Shown piece by piece: positions 19,107 to 27,209 of a stretch of DNA of 64,000 nt (position 1 is the first letter of the stretch; each line of letters begins with the position of its first letter). Under the pieces are notes generated by a model, which saw nothing but the letters and a program-made list of their open reading frames with translations, did not search any database and was not told the DNA's origin. Source of the stretch: Halomarina rubra (GTDB taxonomy: Archaea; Halobacteriota; Halobacteria; Halobacteriales; Haloarculaceae); contig NZ_JALXFV010000008.1 in assembly GCF_023699475.1 (NCBI RefSeq), positions 815,818-879,817 on the forward strand, given 5' to 3'. The translations under genes and the position numbers were made by a program.

Positions 19107-20114
19107 TCAGCGTGCCCGACGGACGAGGAACGCCAAGCCGAGTAGTGCGGCGAAGGCTACGCCCGGGACGACGACCGGTACTCCCCCGACCTCGTTCCCG
19201 TCGCTCGCCCGTTCGAAGAACCCCGGTCGGTCGACGCTGCTGTTCTCGTACCGATAGGCGTCTTCGCTCCACGGCCCTTCGATAGCCGTGTACGACTCGT
19301 TCCACGTGCTCGTAGTCCCGTTGACTCGACCCTCGAACCCGACCTGATCGATGCCTCCGCTACTGTCGTTCAGGTCGTACGCGTACAGACGGGCCTCGCC
19401 GACGACGACCGAGTCGGGGTCGTCGAGGAGTTCGACGGTTACGTTTGTAGACTCGCCAGGGTCAGCAGTTGGTAGATACAGACTCCCATCGGTCCCTGAG
19501 GTATGTACCATCAACTTCGTTGGGTAGCGTTGGTCTGATGGATTTGTCACAGTGATATTCACGACTACTGATTTCTCACCGTCGATACTGCCGCTTGAAA
19601 CGCTCGTGTCTGCAATATAGGGTGTTGGCACGGTGGTTGAGTTTGTGGCATCGATTTCACGAGTGAACGTGAAACTTCGTGCAGCGCCATAGGTGGACAC
19701 TCTAATTTCGTGCGATGTCTCAAGCGCGTTGAGCGCCGACTGGATTTTTATTGTCGTGTTCGAGGTTTCGCCGGAACCTAATTGATGATTTGTATTACGG
19801 ATAGTTGCACCATCTACGGTCACAGATACCCCTGAATATTGCCGACTGCTTGTCGGGTTTGTGGCTTCAATTGTGAGATTATGGCCGTCGTTATTGAAAT
19901 ATAGTTTGTACTGAATTCCGAATTCAGAGACCATCTCTTTCTCTGTAGATAATTCGAGTGAACCCTTCGTATCCTCAACACCGATTGCTACGGAACTGGT
20001 GATGAGTCCAGTGGCAACTAGCAATACTATGGTAAATCTCCCAATCAGCCGCATAATCTTCCTGCTCACCTCCGTATTTAAATTACTTTCTTTTAGAAAC
20101 GAAGATAGACTCAT
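19107..20114 (-). CDS. Membrane-anchored surface protein with N- and C-terminal hydrophobic segments
   Basis: A 335-residue protein with an N-terminal signal/anchor helix (about residues 22-46, RFTIVLLVATGLITSSVAIG) and a C-terminal transmembrane helix (about 309-331) followed by RRAR, so most of the chain is probably extracellular. The ectodomain is Ser/Thr/Asn-rich and beta-type, with many potential N-glycosylation sites (NLT, NTT, NST, NVT, NGT, NSS). The ATG overlaps the upstream frame's stop by four bases, tying it to the split PKD protein. The N-terminal half is markedly AT-rich (19861-19920 has 23 G/C in 60). I do not recognise a named family. Confidence 0.75.
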   Translation of the reverse strand: MSLSSFLKESNLNTEVSRKIMRLIGRFTIVLLVATGLITSSVAIGVEDTKGSLELSTEKEMVSEFGIQYKLYFNNDGHNLTIEATNPTSSRQYSGVSVTVDGATIRNTNHQLGSGETSNTTIKIQSALNALETSHEIRVSTYGAARSFTFTREIDATNSTTVPTPYIADTSVSSGSIDGEKSVVVNITVTNPSDQRYPTKLMVHTSGTDGSLYLPTADPGESTNVTVELLDDPDSVVVGEARLYAYDLNDSSGGIDQVGFEGRVNGTTSTWNESYTAIEGPWSEDAYRYENSSVDRPGFFERASDGNEVGGVPVVVPGVAFAALLGLAFLVRRAR

Positions 20115-21919
20115 TGGCTTCCCTCCGTTTCACGCGTTCGTTCCTCGATTTCGTCCTCGCCTACGACACCCCGACCCACGAACTCGGTCGTGAACTCGTC
20201 GACCACTTTTCCGGTCTTGAATCCCGCGTTGCTCGTGCGGTATCGGATGACGTCACCGCTGACGGTCGCACGCGTCTCGACCACCATGCTCTCTGCGGTG
20301 TACGCTGGTCTGACGACGTGGTCGGTCACCTGACGTTCCATCGTCCAGTGGCGGGTCGTTCGCTCCGACCCGATTCGGACGTCGGCGCTTGCCGATGCCA
20401 GCCGTCTCGCACTCTCTTCGTCGGAGACTGTGGTGTAGTGCTGCCACTCGTATCGAGCGGGTTGAACGACAGTCGTGTGCTCGGCGACGTACGTCTTGTC
20501 GACATCGACGTCCCAACTCACGTACTCGTGGCGGTACTCCGTCGTGTACTCCGCCGGATCGGTGAGTGTGCGTCGAACGTCCCCGGTCGCCGAGTGACTG
20601 TTCGACACTCTCGACTGCGCCCAGTAGGTGTGGGTCTTCTTCCGCGTTACGAGACGGGTGTAGGTCTTCTCGTAGCAACCAATGCCAGGTAGGCACTGGC
20701 GGGTCGTCGTCTTCTCCGGTTCGAGTTCGGTCGTCGTATACTCGTACTCGCGTTCGACGCTGTACTCTGCAGCGTCCGTCTTCACTCTCCGACTCTCGCC
20801 GGTGAACGCGTACCCACGCGTTCGCTTCCACGAGACGGTCGTCTCTTGCGTTCGGGTACGAGTCGTCCGCACGCCGGCCTGCCGCCACTCAGGATGGACC
20901 CGCAGAAACGTTCGACGGTACGACGACGAACCGAACGTCCGGGTGTCCGTCTGTACGATTTCGTTCTGTGTTTTGACGCGCTGCTGGAGCACGTAACCGG
21001 TCGTCTCACTCCTCGTCCCCGCAACGTGGTACCCCGAGTTACGTAACTGAATCATCTCGGCACGAGTGTCTACATCGACGGTATCGACGCTCCGTTCTCT
21101 GATCAGGTACCGAACGTCCGAAACTCGGAAGCCGGAGCGTTCAGTCCGCTGTGCTTCGGTGAGTTCGATTGTCGGCAGTGAAGTTGCCTCGCGAGCCATC
21201 TGAGGCCGTGCCTCGTTGTACAGCACGATTCGCGAGTCGTTGTTCGCGAGCGCACTGGCGGGGAGTTTGACCGTGCCTCTGAACAAGAACTCGTTCTCCT
21301 CGTCGGTTGAGACGCTTTTCCATTCGGCTACACGTCCTGGTGCTCCTCGTAACTCTGCTCCAACACTGAGGGATGCAGTGTTTCGCTGGAAGACGACTCG
21401 CTGTGTTTCGATTTGGATAGATACGGTGTCATCTGGCCCGAATGGCTCTTTTCCTTCGATGGTAGTACTCGATACCTCTGGGACGAACGCATCTCTTAGG
21501 TCCCAGTTGTGCTTGACTTCGTTTCCGTATCCATCTCGCAGTACTAGCCGCCCAGACTCCCACGCATCGAGACGTGCAACCTCTCCAGATTTCGTAGTCG
21601 GTTCTGCTTGCAGTTCCCAGCCGAATCGAAGGCGGCTGTCGTCAGGGTCGAACGAATCGCTCGCGTTGACGATAATCGGCTCCGTGAAATCGATGGGCCG
21701 CTGAGGAACACCTTCTGGGCCATTAATTTCCGCCCCGTCGTTCCGCATCGTAAGTCGAAGTTCGGGTTCACTTGGGGTTACCCTGAATTTAGACGTGGAA
21801 TTCACTGAGATTGAGCCATAGTTTAGATTATCGAATTTCCAGGTATAACCGATAATGTGGGGATTGTGATTGTTTGGAGTTTCACCCCCCCCAGTAGGTG
21901 TGAATTGTTGCGATGCCAT
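20111..21919 (-). CDS. Frame-shifted C-terminal portion of a PKD surface protein, with internal repeats
   Basis: About 602 codons follow the first ATG of this frame, but that ATG lies inside the upstream PKD frame and is probably not a real start. Removing one G from the eight-G run at 21885-21892 joins the two frames. A second PKD-like domain is seen about residues 80-140 (VNASDSFDPDDSRLRFGWEL). A Thr/Arg/Tyr-rich region then holds two related units about 70 residues apart: TGESRRVKTDAAEYSVEREY and TGDVRRTLTDPAEYTTEYRH, each preceded by a Trp. Two cysteines flank CLPGIGC. There is no transmembrane segment; the next gene supplies one. Whether this is a broken gene, a phase-variable gene or a sequencing artefact cannot be decided here. 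Confidence 0.6.
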   Translation of the reverse strand: MASQQFTPTGGGETPNNHNPHIIGYTWKFDNLNYGSISVNSTSKFRVTPSEPELRLTMRNDGAEINGPEGVPQRPIDFTEPIIVNASDSFDPDDSRLRFGWELQAEPTTKSGEVARLDAWESGRLVLRDGYGNEVKHNWDLRDAFVPEVSSTTIEGKEPFGPDDTVSIQIETQRVVFQRNTASLSVGAELRGAPGRVAEWKSVSTDEENEFLFRGTVKLPASALANNDSRIVLYNEARPQMAREATSLPTIELTEAQRTERSGFRVSDVRYLIRERSVDTVDVDTRAEMIQLRNSGYHVAGTRSETTGYVLQQRVKTQNEIVQTDTRTFGSSSYRRTFLRVHPEWRQAGVRTTRTRTQETTVSWKRTRGYAFTGESRRVKTDAAEYSVEREYEYTTTELEPEKTTTRQCLPGIGCYEKTYTRLVTRKKTHTYWAQSRVSNSHSATGDVRRTLTDPAEYTTEYRHEYVSWDVDVDKTYVAEHTTVVQPARYEWQHYTTVSDEESARRLASASADVRIGSERTTRHWTMERQVTDHVVRPAYTAESMVVETRATVSGDVIRYRTSNAGFKTGKVVDEFTTEFVGRGVVGEDEIEERTRETEGSQ

Positions 21920-23177
21920 CACTAGAAGATAGAGCGGACTCTGAAATCAATCTGGTCTTGCCCGGTTTCTGTGCAAAGTGATTTACTCGAATGTCATCTA
22001 CCGAGTTACCGTTCAGTTCGATCTTCATCACATGGTGAGCAGTGTATCGGCCCGGGTCGATTCGTGAATGGTACGAGTCGACGGGTCCGTTGACGAACTC
22101 CGCGGAGATCGTCTCCGGAGGGGCAACGGGGGTGACCGTTCGCCTCACCGTCGTCTCCTGTCCTCGGTTGTCAGTCGCGGTGACGACGAGTTCGTACTCG
22201 CGACCGGGTTCGATGTCGTCCCAGTCGAACGTCACCTCGTCGCTCGACCCCTCGGTGGCGACGCGTTCGGTTCCGAGTCCCTCGACCGTGACGGACACCG
22301 AGTCGAGATTGCCGTACTCGTCGGTCGCTGACGCGGTCCCGCCGATGCGTTGGCGGCGTTCGAGGTTCGCGAGCGTCACGTCCGGCTTCGGGTCGGCGAC
22401 GACGCCCGTCGCACCGTCCTCGAACGTGGCTATCTCGGTCCGACCGTCGGAGTACGTCACCGCTGCGCGGAGCGTGTGATTTCCAGGGGCGAAGGTCAAG
22501 TCGGTCGTCGTCCCGGACGACCGGGCGGTTCCGTCGACGCGCCACTCGACTCGGTCGACGCTGCCAGCGGTGTCGACCGTGTAGCTCGCTTCGAGCGGCC
22601 GGTCGCCGGTGACCAGCCGAGGGCCACGGATCGTCGGCGAACGAGTGACCGTTGGCGTCGCCGTCCCGGTCGTTGGCGTCGCCGTCGGTGTGGTCGTGGT
22701 CGACGGTGGCGCGGGCGGTGCGGGAGACGAAGGATCGGACGTCGTCGCGGTCGGTGGAGCAGACGCCGTCGAGGTCGGTACGGGCGTCGGTGTCGATGGC
22801 GTCGACGTCGAACGCGGGCCGACGCCGACGTCGACGTACAACGAGTCCGACGCGGTCTCGCCCGCGTCGTCCGTCACAGTCAGCGTGACGACGTATCGCC
22901 CCGGTTCGCGTGCCAGGAACGACGTCCTCGGGTCCGTCGGATCTCTCGGTGTGACGACGTCGCCAGCAGGGGTCTCGATGCGCCACTCGTAGCCGACGAC
23001 GGTGCCGTCGGGGTCACGTGACCCCGTCCCGTCAAGGAAGACGGTCGTGTCGCGTTCGACCGTCTGATCGAGTCCAGCGTCGGCGAGCGGTGCGCCCGTT
23101 CGATCGACGTCGGCCAGTACGACTCCCGGAGCGGCCGTCGCGAGGAGGACGGCGACTAGCAGTGCCAACTGTCTCAT
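21882..23177 (-). CDS. PKD-domain secreted protein, N-terminal portion ending at a frameshift
   Basis: A 431-residue frame with a Sec signal peptide (MRQLALLVAVLLATAAPGVV, cleavage likely after LAD). A PKD domain spans about residues 31-117 (TVFLDGTGSRDPDGTVVGYE ... YVVTLTVTDDAG). A Ser/Thr/Pro linker (121-183), likely glycosylated, follows, then two Ig-like segments (184-350). The frame ends abruptly at TYWGG-stop, immediately after TGG GGG GGG. With seven G instead of eight the frame continues into the downstream 600 residues. The 3' end is AT-rich relative to the start. It probably encodes a cell-surface or S-layer-associated protein. Confidence 0.7.
   Translation of the reverse strand: MRQLALLVAVLLATAAPGVVLADVDRTGAPLADAGLDQTVERDTTVFLDGTGSRDPDGTVVGYEWRIETPAGDVVTPRDPTDPRTSFLAREPGRYVVTLTVTDDAGETASDSLYVDVGVGPRSTSTPSTPTPVPTSTASAPPTATTSDPSSPAPPAPPSTTTTPTATPTTGTATPTVTRSPTIRGPRLVTGDRPLEASYTVDTAGSVDRVEWRVDGTARSSGTTTDLTFAPGNHTLRAAVTYSDGRTEIATFEDGATGVVADPKPDVTLANLERRQRIGGTASATDEYGNLDSVSVTVEGLGTERVATEGSSDEVTFDWDDIEPGREYELVVTATDNRGQETTVRRTVTPVAPPETISAEFVNGPVDSYHSRIDPGRYTAHHVMKIELNGNSVDDIRVNHFAQKPGKTRLISESALSSSDGIATIHTYWGG
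21885..21892 (-). repeat. Homopolymeric G8 tract at the frame junction
   Basis: Eight consecutive G (C on the plus strand) sit exactly where the upstream PKD frame stops and the downstream frame continues. Loss of one G fuses the two frames into one protein of about 1,020 residues. Confidence 0.9.
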
Positions 23178-23300
23178 TCGTGCTGGACGACACGTAATCC
23201 GACCTCCAGAGATAAAGTTTCGGAATTAGAGACAGTAGTATTTATCAGACAGTACGGGACGAAAGGGGTGGTCGGTCGACATCGCTCGTCGAACCCAACT

Positions 23301-23310
23301 TCTTTTAACA
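23301..23310 (+). promoter_or_regulatory. TATA-like element for the RNase J transcript
   Basis: TCTTTTAACA is the only AT-rich stretch in this GC-rich gap. It would place a transcription start near 23330, giving a leader of about 180 bases for the RNase J mRNA. Inferred from composition. Confidence 0.4.
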
Positions 23311-23342
23311 GAGTAGCCTGTAGGCCCCAGTAACCGAGTAGA

Positions 23343-23452
23343 CGGTCGCTCACGGGAAGCGTGCGAGCGACCGGCGGGGTCCGGTGTGAACCCGCCGGCT
23401 GTCGGCGGGTTCACACGAGAGGACCGCGCAGGAACTCAGTCTCCAGCGGTCC
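23343..23452 (+). promoter_or_regulatory. Highly structured leader of RNase J with competing hairpins
   Basis: Three perfect inverted repeats are visible. Hairpin 1 is CGGTCGCTC (23343-23351) with GAGCGACCG (23365-23373). Hairpin 2 has 14-base arms, GTGTGAACCCGCCG (23384-23397) and its exact complement at 23403-23416, around loop GCTGT. Hairpin 3 is GGACCGC (23421-23427) with GCGGTCC (23446-23452). GGACC (23421-23425) can instead pair with GGTCC (23378-23382) to lengthen hairpin 2, so hairpin 3 and the long hairpin 2 exclude each other. A further small hairpin, GACTC/GAGTC (23491-23504), lies just before the ATG. No gene is seen in the rest of the 23178-23510 gap. Confidence 0.6.
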
Positions 23453-23510
23453 GTCCTCGCCGGTCGGTCGCGGCAACGCGCCCGTCGGGCGACTCCTCGG
23501 AGTCAACACT

Positions 23511-24863
23511 ATGGAAGTCGAAATCGCAACGATTGGCGGATACGAAGAGGTCGGCCGACAGATGACGGCCGTCCGTGCCGGGGACGACGTGGTCGTCTTC
23601 GACATGGGTCTCAACCTCTCGCAGGTACTGATTCACGACAACGTCGAGACCGAGCGCATGCACAGCCTCGACCTCATCGACATGGGCGCGATTCCGGACG
23701 ACCGCGTCATGTCCGACCTCGAGGGCGACGTGCAGGCCATCGTCCCGACCCACGGTCACCTCGACCACATCGGGGCCATCTCGAAGTTGGCCCACCGCTA
23801 CGACGCACCCATCGTCGCCACGCCGTTCACCATCGAACTGGTCAAACAGCAGATCCAGAGCGAGGAGAAGTTCGGCGTCCAGAACGACCTGAAGAAGATG
23901 AGCGCCGGCGAGACGATGTCCATCGGCGACTCGGGCAACGTCGAACTGGAGTTCGTCCACGTGACTCACTCCATCATCGACGCCATCAACCCCGTCCTCC
24001 ACACACCGGAGGGTGCGGTCGTCTACGGTCTCGACAAGCGCATGGACCACTCGCCGGTCATCGAGGACCCCATCGACATGAAGCGGTTCCGCGAGATCGG
24101 TCGCGAGGGAGAGGGCGTCCTCGCGTACATCGAGGACTGTACGAACGCGGGTCGGAAGGGCCGGACGCCCTCCGAGAGCGTGGCACGTCGCCACCTCAAG
24201 GACGTCATGACCTCCGTCGAGGACTACGACGGCGGTATCGTCGCCACGACGTTCTCCAGTCACATCTCGCGTGTGACGTCGCTCGTCGAGTTCGCCAACG
24301 ACATCGGCCGCCAGCCGGTCCTGTTGGGTCGCTCGATGGAGAAGTACTCGGGCACCGCAGAGCGCCTCGGCTTCGTCGACTTCCCGGACGACCTCGGGAT
24401 GTACGGCCACCGTAAGAGCGTCGACCGGACGTTCAAGCGCATCATGAACGAGGGCAAGGAGAAGTTCCTGCCCATCGTGACGGGCCACCAGGGCGAGCCA
24501 CGCGCGATGCTCACCCGGATGGGTCGCGGCGAGACCCCCTACCAGCTCGACGACGGCGACAAGGTCATCTTCTCGGCGCGGGTCATCCCCGAGCCGACCA
24601 ACGAGGGCCAGCGCTACCAGTCCGAGAAGCTGCTGAAGATGCAGGGCGCACGCATCTTCGACGACATCCACGTCTCGGGCCACCTCCGCGAGGAGGGCCA
24701 CTACGAGATGCTGCAGGCGCTCCAGCCGAAGCACGTCATCCCGGCCCACCAGAGTATGGAAGGGTTCGCGCCGTACACGAAGCTCGCGGCCTCGCAGGGG
24801 TACACCCTCGGCCGTGACCTCCACGTGACGCGCAACGGGAACATGATCCAGCTGACCGAATGA
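23511..24863 (+). CDS. rnj: Archaeal RNase J (beta-CASP metallo-beta-lactamase ribonuclease)
   Basis: A 450-residue 5'-3' exoribonuclease of mRNA turnover and RNA processing. The zinc-binding motif [11 protein letters not shown] lies near residue 80. [20 protein letters not shown] and [10 protein letters not shown] are the MBL core, [18 protein letters not shown] and [17 protein letters not shown] the beta-CASP part, and [17 protein letters not shown] with [12 protein letters not shown] the C-terminal MBL return. The ATG at 23511 starts the conserved sequence; the 50-residue GTG extension upstream is read through the leader hairpins and is rejected. Its stop overlaps the idsA start (ATGA). 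Confidence 0.95.
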
Positions 24864-25888
24864 GCGCCGGGCGCGACCGCGTCGAGCGAGCCGTCGAACG
24901 ACGCCGCGAACTGGTCAACGAGGGCATCGCGGAGATGCTCCCCGTCCAGCGACCGGAACGGCTCTACGAGGCCTCGCGATACCTGCTGGACGCGGGCGGC
25001 AAGCGCCTCCGACCGGCCGTGTTGTTGCTCGCCGCCGAGGCCATCGAGGGCGTCGAACCGTTCGAGGGGGACTACCGCTCGTTCGGCACCGACGACGTCG
25101 ACGTGATGGCCGCCGCCGTGAGCATCGAGGTCATTCAGTCGTTCACGCTCATCCACGACGACATCATGGACGACGACGACGTCCGTCGTGGCGTCCCGGC
25201 CGTCCACCGCGAGTACGACCTGGAGACCGCCATCCTCGCCGGCGACACGCTGTACTCGAAGGCGTTCGAGTACATGCTCGACGCGGACGCCCCCGCGGAC
25301 CGGACGGTCCGTGCGCTCGACGAACTGGCACAGACCTGCACTCGAATCTGTGAGGGGCAGGCGCTCGACGTCGAGTTCGAGGAACGACCGACGGTCGCCC
25401 CGGAGGAGTACCTCGACATGGTCGAGTTCAAGACGGCCGTGTTGTACGCGGCCGCCGCGGCGATTCCGGCCATCCTCCTCGGAGCGGACGAGGAGGTCGT
25501 CGAGGCGCTTCGTGGCTACGGCCTCGACGTGGGCCGTGCGTTCCAGATTCAGGACGACCTGCTCGACCTGACGACGCCCAGCGAGACCCTCGGCAAACAG
25601 CGAGGGTCGGACCTCATCGAAGGGAAACGGACCATCGTCTCGCTGCACGCCCGCGAACAGGGCGTCGACGTGGACACGCTCGTCCCGCACGAGCGCGAGT
25701 CCGTCACCGAGGCCGACATCGACGACGCCGTCGCCGAACTCTCCGCCGCGGGCAGCATCGAGTACGCCCGCGAGATGGCACACGAGTACGTCGAACGCGG
25801 GAAGAACCGGCTCACCGTCCTCCCCGAGGGCGAGGCCAGAGAGACGCTCGTCGACATCGCGGACTACCTCGTCGAACGCGAGTACTGA
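24860..25888 (+). CDS. idsA: Geranylgeranyl/farnesyl diphosphate synthase
   Basis: A 342-residue trans-prenyltransferase that makes the C15/C20 precursors of archaeal membrane lipids and carotenoids. The first aspartate-rich motif is [17 protein letters not shown], and the second is [12 protein letters not shown]. The substrate-binding [12 protein letters not shown] is near residue 46. It is translationally coupled to RNase J by a four-base overlap, a pairing seen in other haloarchaea. It completes the isoprenoid set with mvk and ipk at 7.7-9.4 kb. Confidence 0.96.
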
Positions 25889-25972
25889 ACCTCGTCGGCC
25901 GCCGACAGGACCGGGGGGCACCCGGCATCGGCGGCGTCAACTGTTTTCATCCTCCCCCGAGTCGGACCCAGT

Positions 25973-26185
25973 ATGACCGACCGAGTCGAGTGGGAGTACG
26001 AGACGCTCCGTGCTCCCCGCGGGCCGACGAAGCACGAGACGAGCGACCCGAAGGCCGAGTTGAACGAACTCGGAGCCGAGGGGTGGGAACTGGTCGGGAC
26101 GGCGACGTACTCCGGGGGCGGGACGAAGTACTACCTGCTCAAGCGACCGGTCGGGGACGCGGCCGACGGTGTCACGGATGAGTGA
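25973..26185 (+). CDS. DUF4177-like small protein
   Basis: A 70-residue protein with the pattern WEYETLRAP ... ELNELGAEGWELVGTATYSG ... TKYYLLKRPV. The central LNELGAEGWELV is characteristic of DUF4177, a small beta-rich domain of unknown role. Its 3' end overlaps the next gene, a membrane protein, by eight bases, so the two are probably co-expressed. Confidence 0.82.
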   Translation: MTDRVEWEYETLRAPRGPTKHETSDPKAELNELGAEGWELVGTATYSGGGTKYYLLKRPVGDAADGVTDE

Positions 26186-27209
26186 CCTCTCGGTCGAGAA
26201 GCAGGCGGACGTCTCGACGGAGAACACGATGCGCGCTCGGGCCGGCGAGAGTCGCCTGAAGCTGTGGGTGCTGCTCGGTGCGAACCGACTGCTCGTCACC
26301 GGCGTACTGTGTGCCATCATCTTCGTCGGGTTCATCCTGCTCGGCGTCTCGTTCGACCCGCCGTTCTACGTCCGAGTGGTCGAGGGCGACGTCCTCGGGA
26401 CGATGTTCTCGACGATGACCAGCGCGCTCATCACCGGCGTCACGCTGGTCGTCTCCATCAACCAGCTCGTCATCTCACAGGAGAACGGGCCGCTCGGCGA
26501 CCAGCACAGTCGAATGAGCAACACGCTCGACTTCCGGCAGTACACGAGCGAGCTCATCGGAACCACGGCCCCCGCCGACCCTTCGGCGTTCCTCGCTGCC
26601 ATCGTCGAGGCGTCAGAGGACCGCGCTACGGACCTCGAGGAGGCCGTCGAACAGTTGGGCAACGACCAGTTCACCGAGGAAGTCTCGGAGTTCGTCGACA
26701 GCCTCACCGGGAACGCAGAGACTGTCAAGGACAAGCTAGACGGCGCGACGTTCGGGACGTTCGACGTCCTGTTCGCCGCGCTCGACTACAACTACTCCTA
26801 CAAGGTGTTCCAGGTCGACCGACTCCGCGAACTGTACGGCGACGACATCGACCAGGAGACGAACGACCTGTTCGACGAACTCCACACCTCGCTCGTGATG
26901 TTCGGGCCCGCCCGCGAGCACATCAAGACGTTGTACTTCCAGTGGGCGCTGACGAGCCTCTCACAGCTCATCGTCTACGCCGCGATTCCGGCCCTGCTGG
27001 TCTCGGGTGCGATGCTCGCGTTCGTCGACGCCGCGACGTTCACCGGGACCACCCTCGGCATCAGCGACATCCTCTGGGTGACCTCAGGTGCGTTCACCGT
27101 CTCGCTGGTGCCCTTCTTCCTGTTCGTCTCCTACGTGATGCGCATCGCGACGGTGGCGAAACGGACGCTGGCCATCGGGCCGCTCATTCTCCGGGACTCC
27201 CAGCGCTGA
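26178..27209 (+). CDS. Haloarchaeal multi-pass membrane protein
   Basis: A protein of about 343 residues with two N-terminal transmembrane helices (LLVTGVLCAIIFVGFILLGV and the following SALITGVTLVVSINQLVI) and two C-terminal ones (LIVYAAIPALLVSGAMLAFV and TSGAFTVSLVPFFLFVSYVM). They enclose an acidic helical loop of about 150 residues. The ATG at 26178 is chosen; a GTG at 26169 is possible. Translation is probably coupled to the DUF4177-like gene. The family is of unknown function and no transport motif is visible. Confidence 0.8.
   Translation: MSDLSVEKQADVSTENTMRARAGESRLKLWVLLGANRLLVTGVLCAIIFVGFILLGVSFDPPFYVRVVEGDVLGTMFSTMTSALITGVTLVVSINQLVISQENGPLGDQHSRMSNTLDFRQYTSELIGTTAPADPSAFLAAIVEASEDRATDLEEAVEQLGNDQFTEEVSEFVDSLTGNAETVKDKLDGATFGTFDVLFAALDYNYSYKVFQVDRLRELYGDDIDQETNDLFDELHTSLVMFGPAREHIKTLYFQWALTSLSQLIVYAAIPALLVSGAMLAFVDAATFTGTTLGISDILWVTSGAFTVSLVPFFLFVSYVMRIATVAKRTLAIGPLILRDSQR

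Follow-up and report, generated by a model that had tools for sequence, protein, structure and literature searches.

A candidate bistable 5' leader of the RNase J gene in haloarchaea

Introduction

In bacteria, RNase E, RNase III and PNPase are described as limiting their own synthesis, and the mechanism described for the autoregulation of E. coli rne is the direct binding of the enzyme to a stem-loop (PMC3997798). Autoregulation of RNase E was also suggested in Synechocystis (PMC7283877), and RNase Y of B. subtilis is reported to control the lifetime of its own rny mRNA (PMC10303841). In archaea, L7Ae is reported to limit its own synthesis via a k-turn in the 5' UTR (PMC5539422).

We analysed a stretch of 64,000 nucleotides of Halomarina rubra, here called the window, in which the rnj gene is located at 23511-24863 on the + strand. 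The gene encodes a beta-CASP ribonuclease of the RNase J family with 450 amino acid residues (NCBIfam TIGR00649, 421.8 bits at a cut-off of 400). Its closest named relative, in Halomarina oriensis, is 98% identical, and a prenyl diphosphate synthase gene follows on the 3' side with an overlap of 4 bases. RNase J is the chief RNA-degrading enzyme in haloarchaea. In Haloferax volcanii, aRNase J is described as essential and an exosome is absent; a strain of this species with rnj under tryptophan control is also reported (PMC10470531). The rnj gene in the window is preceded by a leader of about 23330-23510, which a first-pass annotation of the same DNA had proposed as a possible autoregulatory switch. 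In the literature that was searched, which included HVO_2724 and had most subscription papers outside its reach, no leader of an archaeal rnj gene and no such autoregulation of RNase J were found.

The element resembles that of E. coli rne in being the structured 5' UTR of a major RNase's own gene, but the enzyme family and the domain of life are different and the rnj leader has no sequence family match. A bistable fold that closes the 5' end is not part of the description of the rne element in the available portion of that report (PMC3997798). Judged by its sequence, the rnj leader would work like a bistable leader that shares with the rne type the structured 5' UTR of its own gene. The rny system is similar to what we propose in that an RNase regulates itself, but it is described as depending on cleavages, and the first ~100 nt of the reading frame are one of the regions concerned (PMC10303841). 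The L7Ae leader is likewise archaeal, autogenous and close to the start codon, whereas it contains a k-turn and the accessible part of its account describes no long-range alternative pairing (PMC5539422). The halobacterial S15 leader, also a structured leader of a haloarchaeal gene that was found by comparative genomics, is set apart by its description since it precedes rpsO and not rnj (PMC7247131).

Results and Discussion

Complementary strands in the rnj leader

The strand 23300-23520 was predicted to fold with -119.1 kcal/mol, compared to a mean of -90.8 kcal/mol for 200 dinucleotide shuffles, none of which was as low (z -5.8). The hairpins of 9, 14 (perfect) and 7 bases that the first-pass annotation had placed before rnj are all present with perfect arms (23343-23351 with 23365-23373, 9 bp; 23384-23397 with 23403-23416, 14 bp; 23421-23427 with 23446-23452, 7 bp). 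A longer inverted repeat of 17 nt and 88% between 23363-23379 and 23455-23471 had been missed, as had two further pairings, 23345-23351/23487-23493 and 23334-23338/23496-23500. Together, the three helices make up the predicted final fold.

The strands that recur in 42 leaders of this type, here termed class I, follow each other in the order A, A', C and D and are enclosed by the helix P1. Strand A (23343-23352) is complementary to A' (23365-23373), with which it would form the early hairpin, and to D (23487-23493), its partner in the final fold. A' is complementary to A and, as an extended arm (23363-23379), to C (23455-23471), its partner in the final fold. The 5' strand of P1 (CCGAG, 23334-23338) pairs with its 3' strand (CTCGG, 23496-23500) and closes the leader, with 10 nt between the end of the helix and the ATG. 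The 3' strand overlaps a GGAG at 23499-23502, a putative Shine-Dalgarno-like motif.

The 14-bp hairpin is a variable arm (23384-23416), the length of which varies widely between species. Beneath it, GGTCC (23378-23382) pairs with GGACC (23421-23425) in 8 of 8 leaders of the Halomarina group, and two of the pairs are changed on both sides. It had been suggested that GGACC switches between this upstream partner and GCGGTCC downstream (23446-23452). The upstream pairing holds, but the downstream one of GGACCGC was 83.9% paired versus 83.6% in shuffles and had no covariation, so its conservation is no better than chance. The idea of competing folds as such was borne out by exclusive pairings with compensatory changes, as detailed below, but the arms involved are A, A', C and D and not those originally named. 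The last small hairpin that had been noted before the start codon corresponds to a palindrome at 23491-23504, which is mutually exclusive with D and P1. By eye, a matching palindrome is present in most of the 8 Halomarina-group rows and absent from most others.

Strand A covaries with two exclusive partners

A total of 52 distinct class I leaders were collected, with L027 excluded by name, and 42 non-redundant ones were kept and aligned (A2). The 52 were chosen solely by a pattern on the 5' side, CCGA[GA] and then GG[CT]CG[CT], so that the invariance of the P1 5' strand and of A is partly by construction; A', C, D and the P1 3' strand are outside the pattern. In the A2 alignment one pair register fails in the Halosimplex-type rows, in which a bulge shifts A:D.

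In the 42 leaders, A:A' was paired in 94.4% of the cells and A:D in 86.0%, with 4 pairs of A:D changed on both sides. For A':C the two parts of the helix were paired in 85.4% and 82.5%, the main helix accounting for the 85%. P1 was paired in 100% of the cells and 42 of 42 rows without variation; it therefore shows no covariation, and the pairing of the 5' end is unproved by this measure. Column pair 17:44 of A:A' is UA in 22 and CG in 20 rows, and column pair 20:41 is CG in 37 and UA in 5 rows, both with no exception.

The covariation score of A:A' was reached by none of 500 shuffles, and the same was true for the closed fold with A:D and A':C (0.153 versus 0.103 when shuffled). By three measures, namely the cells paired, those with double changes and the covariation score, none of the 500 shuffles reached either structure, and no slid version did. 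Three pairs of A:A' had a double change (as high in 69 of 500 shuffles) with 5 further types (500 of 500), whereas the closed fold had 7 such pairs (27 of 500) and 20 types (87 of 500). On the counts of pairs or pair types, which are the measures least inflated by kinship, the excess over shuffles was modest or absent, which gives more weight to the events on the rnj gene tree.

On this tree, columns 17 and 20 each changed 4 times, and every one of these changes was matched in A' on the same branch; A:A' had about 9 compensatory events altogether. A:D also had about 9 compensatory events, and in about 17 cases a change on one side preserved the pair; for A':C the counts were about 5 and about 17, respectively. 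Both helices of the closed fold also showed many makings and breakings of pairs, mostly at the outer ones. Covariation of the arms in relatives had been proposed as a check, and compensatory changes were indeed frequent in A:A' and A:D. They tie strand A by evolution to two mutually exclusive partners, so that two exclusive helices each carry compensatory changes, as in a bistable switch. In line with this, pairing within a species exceeded that across species for A:A' and A:D (reached in 0 of 5000 permutations each, with a misplaced stretch in one row, L070). At the level of sequence comparison, covariation of a single strand with two partners that exclude each other argues strongly for an RNA switch.

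The repeats might instead act as DNA, as an operator or a recombination site, or the leader might be coding, but we regard either as very improbable. G-U pairs did not exceed A-C in A:A' (2 versus 4), as expected of DNA, but they did in A:D (22 versus 12) and in A':C (21 versus 14), and in 34 of 42 leaders the RNA strand gave a more stable fold than the complementary one. In the window, the reading frame of rnj stays open upstream of the ATG as far as the GTG at 23361, but lengths of the leaders are evenly spread modulo 3 and 28 of 42 have an in-frame stop, which ruled out a coding extension of RNase J.

The predicted folding follows an order

The folds were computed with energies for standard conditions, not for molar salt. 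In the free ensembles, A was paired with the last 60 nt with a probability of 0.47-1.0 in 52 of 52 leaders and P1 was formed with 0.61-1.0, also in 52 of 52, whereas A:A' reached at most 0.04. Minimum-energy folds of the growing RNA gave a different picture for the shorter lengths. In the window, A:A' was present at most lengths between about 44 and 132 nt. From about 136 nt on, A' was lost to C, a partner that is deduced from the final fold, and at 164-172 nt D captured A and P1 closed. Leaving aside the last 60 nt, A:A' was found at a majority of the lengths in 40 of 42 species; at full length it was found in 0 of 42.

Refolding alone is unremarkable, since 59% of 840 shuffled leaders also lost their early pairs at full length; what is special is the closing of the 5' end. 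Nucleotides 4-10 were paired with the last 28 nt in 42 of 42 real leaders versus 24.5% of the shuffles, and early-pair loss together with 5'-end closing was observed in 41 of 42 versus 18.2%.

A further 30 class I loci were examined, 20 fetched for this test and 10 from the 30 loci returned with R1, the model of the 5' domain (see below). Among them, 26 leaders were outside the 52, including six genomes of families other than that of the window. P1 and the pairing of A with the 3' end each exceeded 0.5 in 26 of 26, the early hairpin was found in 25 of 26 and A:A' was above 0.1 in 1 of 26. Because these leaders were found with a model that contains A:A', only P1 and the pairing of A to the 3' end are independent here. 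CTCGG was at one fixed distance from the ATG in most of the further class I leaders.

We then forced the A:A' pairing. In 20 of 42 species the Shine-Dalgarno region was freed by over 0.1 and in 2 it was closed; the P1 5' strand opened in 26 of 42, and the surroundings of the ATG were on average slightly less open (0.59 versus 0.66). A translational step is therefore weakly supported. The forced open state was less stable by a mean of 7.4 kcal/mol (0.1 to 17.0), so a partner or the kinetics would be needed for the open state to matter.

Since the opening around the Shine-Dalgarno region and the ATG is weak, we kept the possibility that the leader is a folding guide and not a switch, although we doubt it. 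A:A' would then be a transient that keeps A from mispairing until D emerges, and the closed leader would be the sole functional form, acting constitutively either to protect the 5' end or as a damper. Full-length ensembles that nearly lack A:A' and growing transcripts that pass through it are consistent with such a guide. No measurement contradicts the guide, and the exceptionless covariation of A:A' at two positions shows its importance but not regulation.

The transcript is predicted to start at P1

Of the 42 non-redundant class I leaders, 37 have a TATA-like match before CCGAG, at a distance of 30 nt in 32 and of 31 nt in 5; the remaining 5 of the 42 had no match to the TATA pattern used. 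In the window, the TATA box of the rnj promoter is TTTTAA at 23303-23308 (+). This constant spacing predicts a transcription start zone at about 23330-23333, directly at P1, with the putative 5' end of rnj at GTAACCGAG. The start is very likely within ~4 nt of P1, as judged from the spacing. A start downstream of 23460 had been named as incompatible with a leader switch, and the TATA spacing points elsewhere.

It had also been considered that the region encodes a separate small RNA before rnj. The stable fold would fit, and ncRNAs derived from 5' UTRs are reported in Pyrococcus (PMC3124441). We consider this improbable and found no positive evidence for it: the closing helix extends to 10 nt before the ATG, T runs in the leader of the window never exceed two, and every match in 66 checked genomes precedes rnj. 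The lack of longer T runs also makes intrinsic attenuation unlikely in the window.

Class I leaders precede rnj

Of 293 genomes of the order, 99 had a match to the R1 model at E <= 1e-3. The placement was checked in 66 of the 99, namely the 64 with a match at E < 1e-5 plus two of the same family with weaker matches, and in 66 of 66 the match was 112-268 nt upstream of the rnj start on the same strand. All 66 checked matches thus precede rnj and not several genes of one pathway, as a metabolite riboswitch would. When, to look beyond the order, 148 genomes of the phylum were searched with R1 at E <= 1e-5, only 2 matches were obtained, in the window's genome and in one of its family. Matches to Rfam 15 at the gathering threshold were absent from 18 rnj loci of both leader classes, and in the window at 20000-27000 two miRNA matches far below gathering were seen, both outside the leader.

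Single-gene placement is commoner for autogenous leaders than for metabolite riboswitches. A riboswitch or a protein-binding leader whose signal is not RNase J but a metabolite, salt, L7Ae or another protein would find a suitable bistable platform with conserved strands here, and autoregulation of archaeal L7Ae via a 5' UTR k-turn is on record (PMC5539422). With one gene only downstream in 66 of 66 checked cases, we think such a sensor rather unlikely.

The 66 checked genomes contain 11 second copies of rnj, and R1 was absent before all of them (e.g. G019:C1:1653639-1654973 and G115:C1:609310-610653). The paralogues are therefore probably regulated differently.

Weak partial matches to R1 occurred in G239 (C60:162069-162191 and 182658-182783) and in other genomes of genus g24. 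They are paired copies with equal scores and look like a repeat family rather than leaders.

A second class of leader

The RNase J scan gave 80 named loci; 30 loci, many of them from the same species, came from a search of 59 relatives. The 80 comprise 37 of class I, 36 of class II, 6 that are provisionally class II on a weaker criterion, and 1 (L112) of neither class. The class II leader was found in Haloferax, Haloplanus, Haladaptatus, Halorussus and Halobacterium at about 100-200 nt upstream of rnj (e.g. L093:1384-1421; further examples are L035-L045, L048, L051, L074, L087, L103 and others). It consists of CCCGCGGGTAAGTG, a variable hairpin, GCGGGG, a core hairpin with the loop TGTAAGAC, and, at the start codon, a final hairpin GAGCA..TGCTC. 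Both classes precede the same gene at the same position and have their own TATA box, but the sequence and the core hairpin of class II are different and no swap of the A/A'/C/D kind was recognised in it.

The class II alignment (A4) took in 21 of 31 representatives. Because MAFFT slid the GCGGG arm, no whole-leader model was made and R2 represents the core hairpin only. The core set (A5) contains 28 distinct cores that were picked by pattern, with class II-like loci lacking the pattern left out; the conservation of the core is therefore partly by construction, whereas the outer pairs, which covary, are free of this. R2 matched in 142 of 293 genomes, at one place each, and the match started 98-214 nt upstream of rnj in 30 of 30 loci returned. 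Only G291 has both R1 (below 1e-5) and R2, and its R2 match (1.6e-4) is far from rnj.

The class labels require 2 changes on the RNase J tree, compared to a mean of 26.2 when shuffled. Class I lies in the Halomarina-Haloarcula part of the tree, inside of which there are two class II rows of Haloarchaeobius. These two (L074 and L076) have a class II leader and an RNase J among those of the class I carriers, as from a reversal, a transfer or a tree error. The rnj of Halorientalis marina (L112), which has neither leader, lies on a divergent RNase J branch.

A model for the closed and open leader

From the covariation and the predicted folds, a cis-acting, bistable 5' leader of the rnj mRNA with closed/open control is the best explanation, and we favour it with a confidence somewhat better than even. 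The folded leader probably lets the cell control the amount of RNase J, and a control by RNase J itself is plausible. As the RNA emerges, strand A is predicted to pair first with A'. Later, C is predicted to capture A' and D to capture A, and P1 to tie the 5' end to bases 10 nt before the start codon. The closed form may shield the 5' end from 5'-to-3' decay and cover the ribosome entry region, which would make it stable and poorly translated. In the open form with A:A', about 10 nt at the 5' end would be single-stranded and the start region would be freer, which would allow both translation and attack. Less certainly, RNase J might bind or attack this open form; the product would then destroy the translatable form, which amounts to a negative feedback.

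A more far-reaching proposal is offered tentatively and may well prove wrong. Two unrelated leader classes would control the essential RNase J. The class I leader would fold in a programmed order and tie its 5' end to the start-codon region, and would so provide itself with a cap against a nuclease that depends on the 5' end. The encoded enzyme would have access only to the untied, translatable form, which would set the RNase J level without another factor. A conserved two-state leader would provide a concrete handle on the control of the main RNase in archaea that have no exosome. Since cultured strains exist among the haloarchaea with class I (Haloarcula) and class II (Haloferax), the idea is directly testable.

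Neighbouring reading frames

On the opposite strand of the window, the divergent gene at 21882-23177 (-) has a secreted-looking product that is rich in S, T and P and weakly similar to a large metallopeptidase family. It is overlapped by a reading frame of 603 amino acid residues at 20111-21922 (-), for which NCBIfam gave no match.
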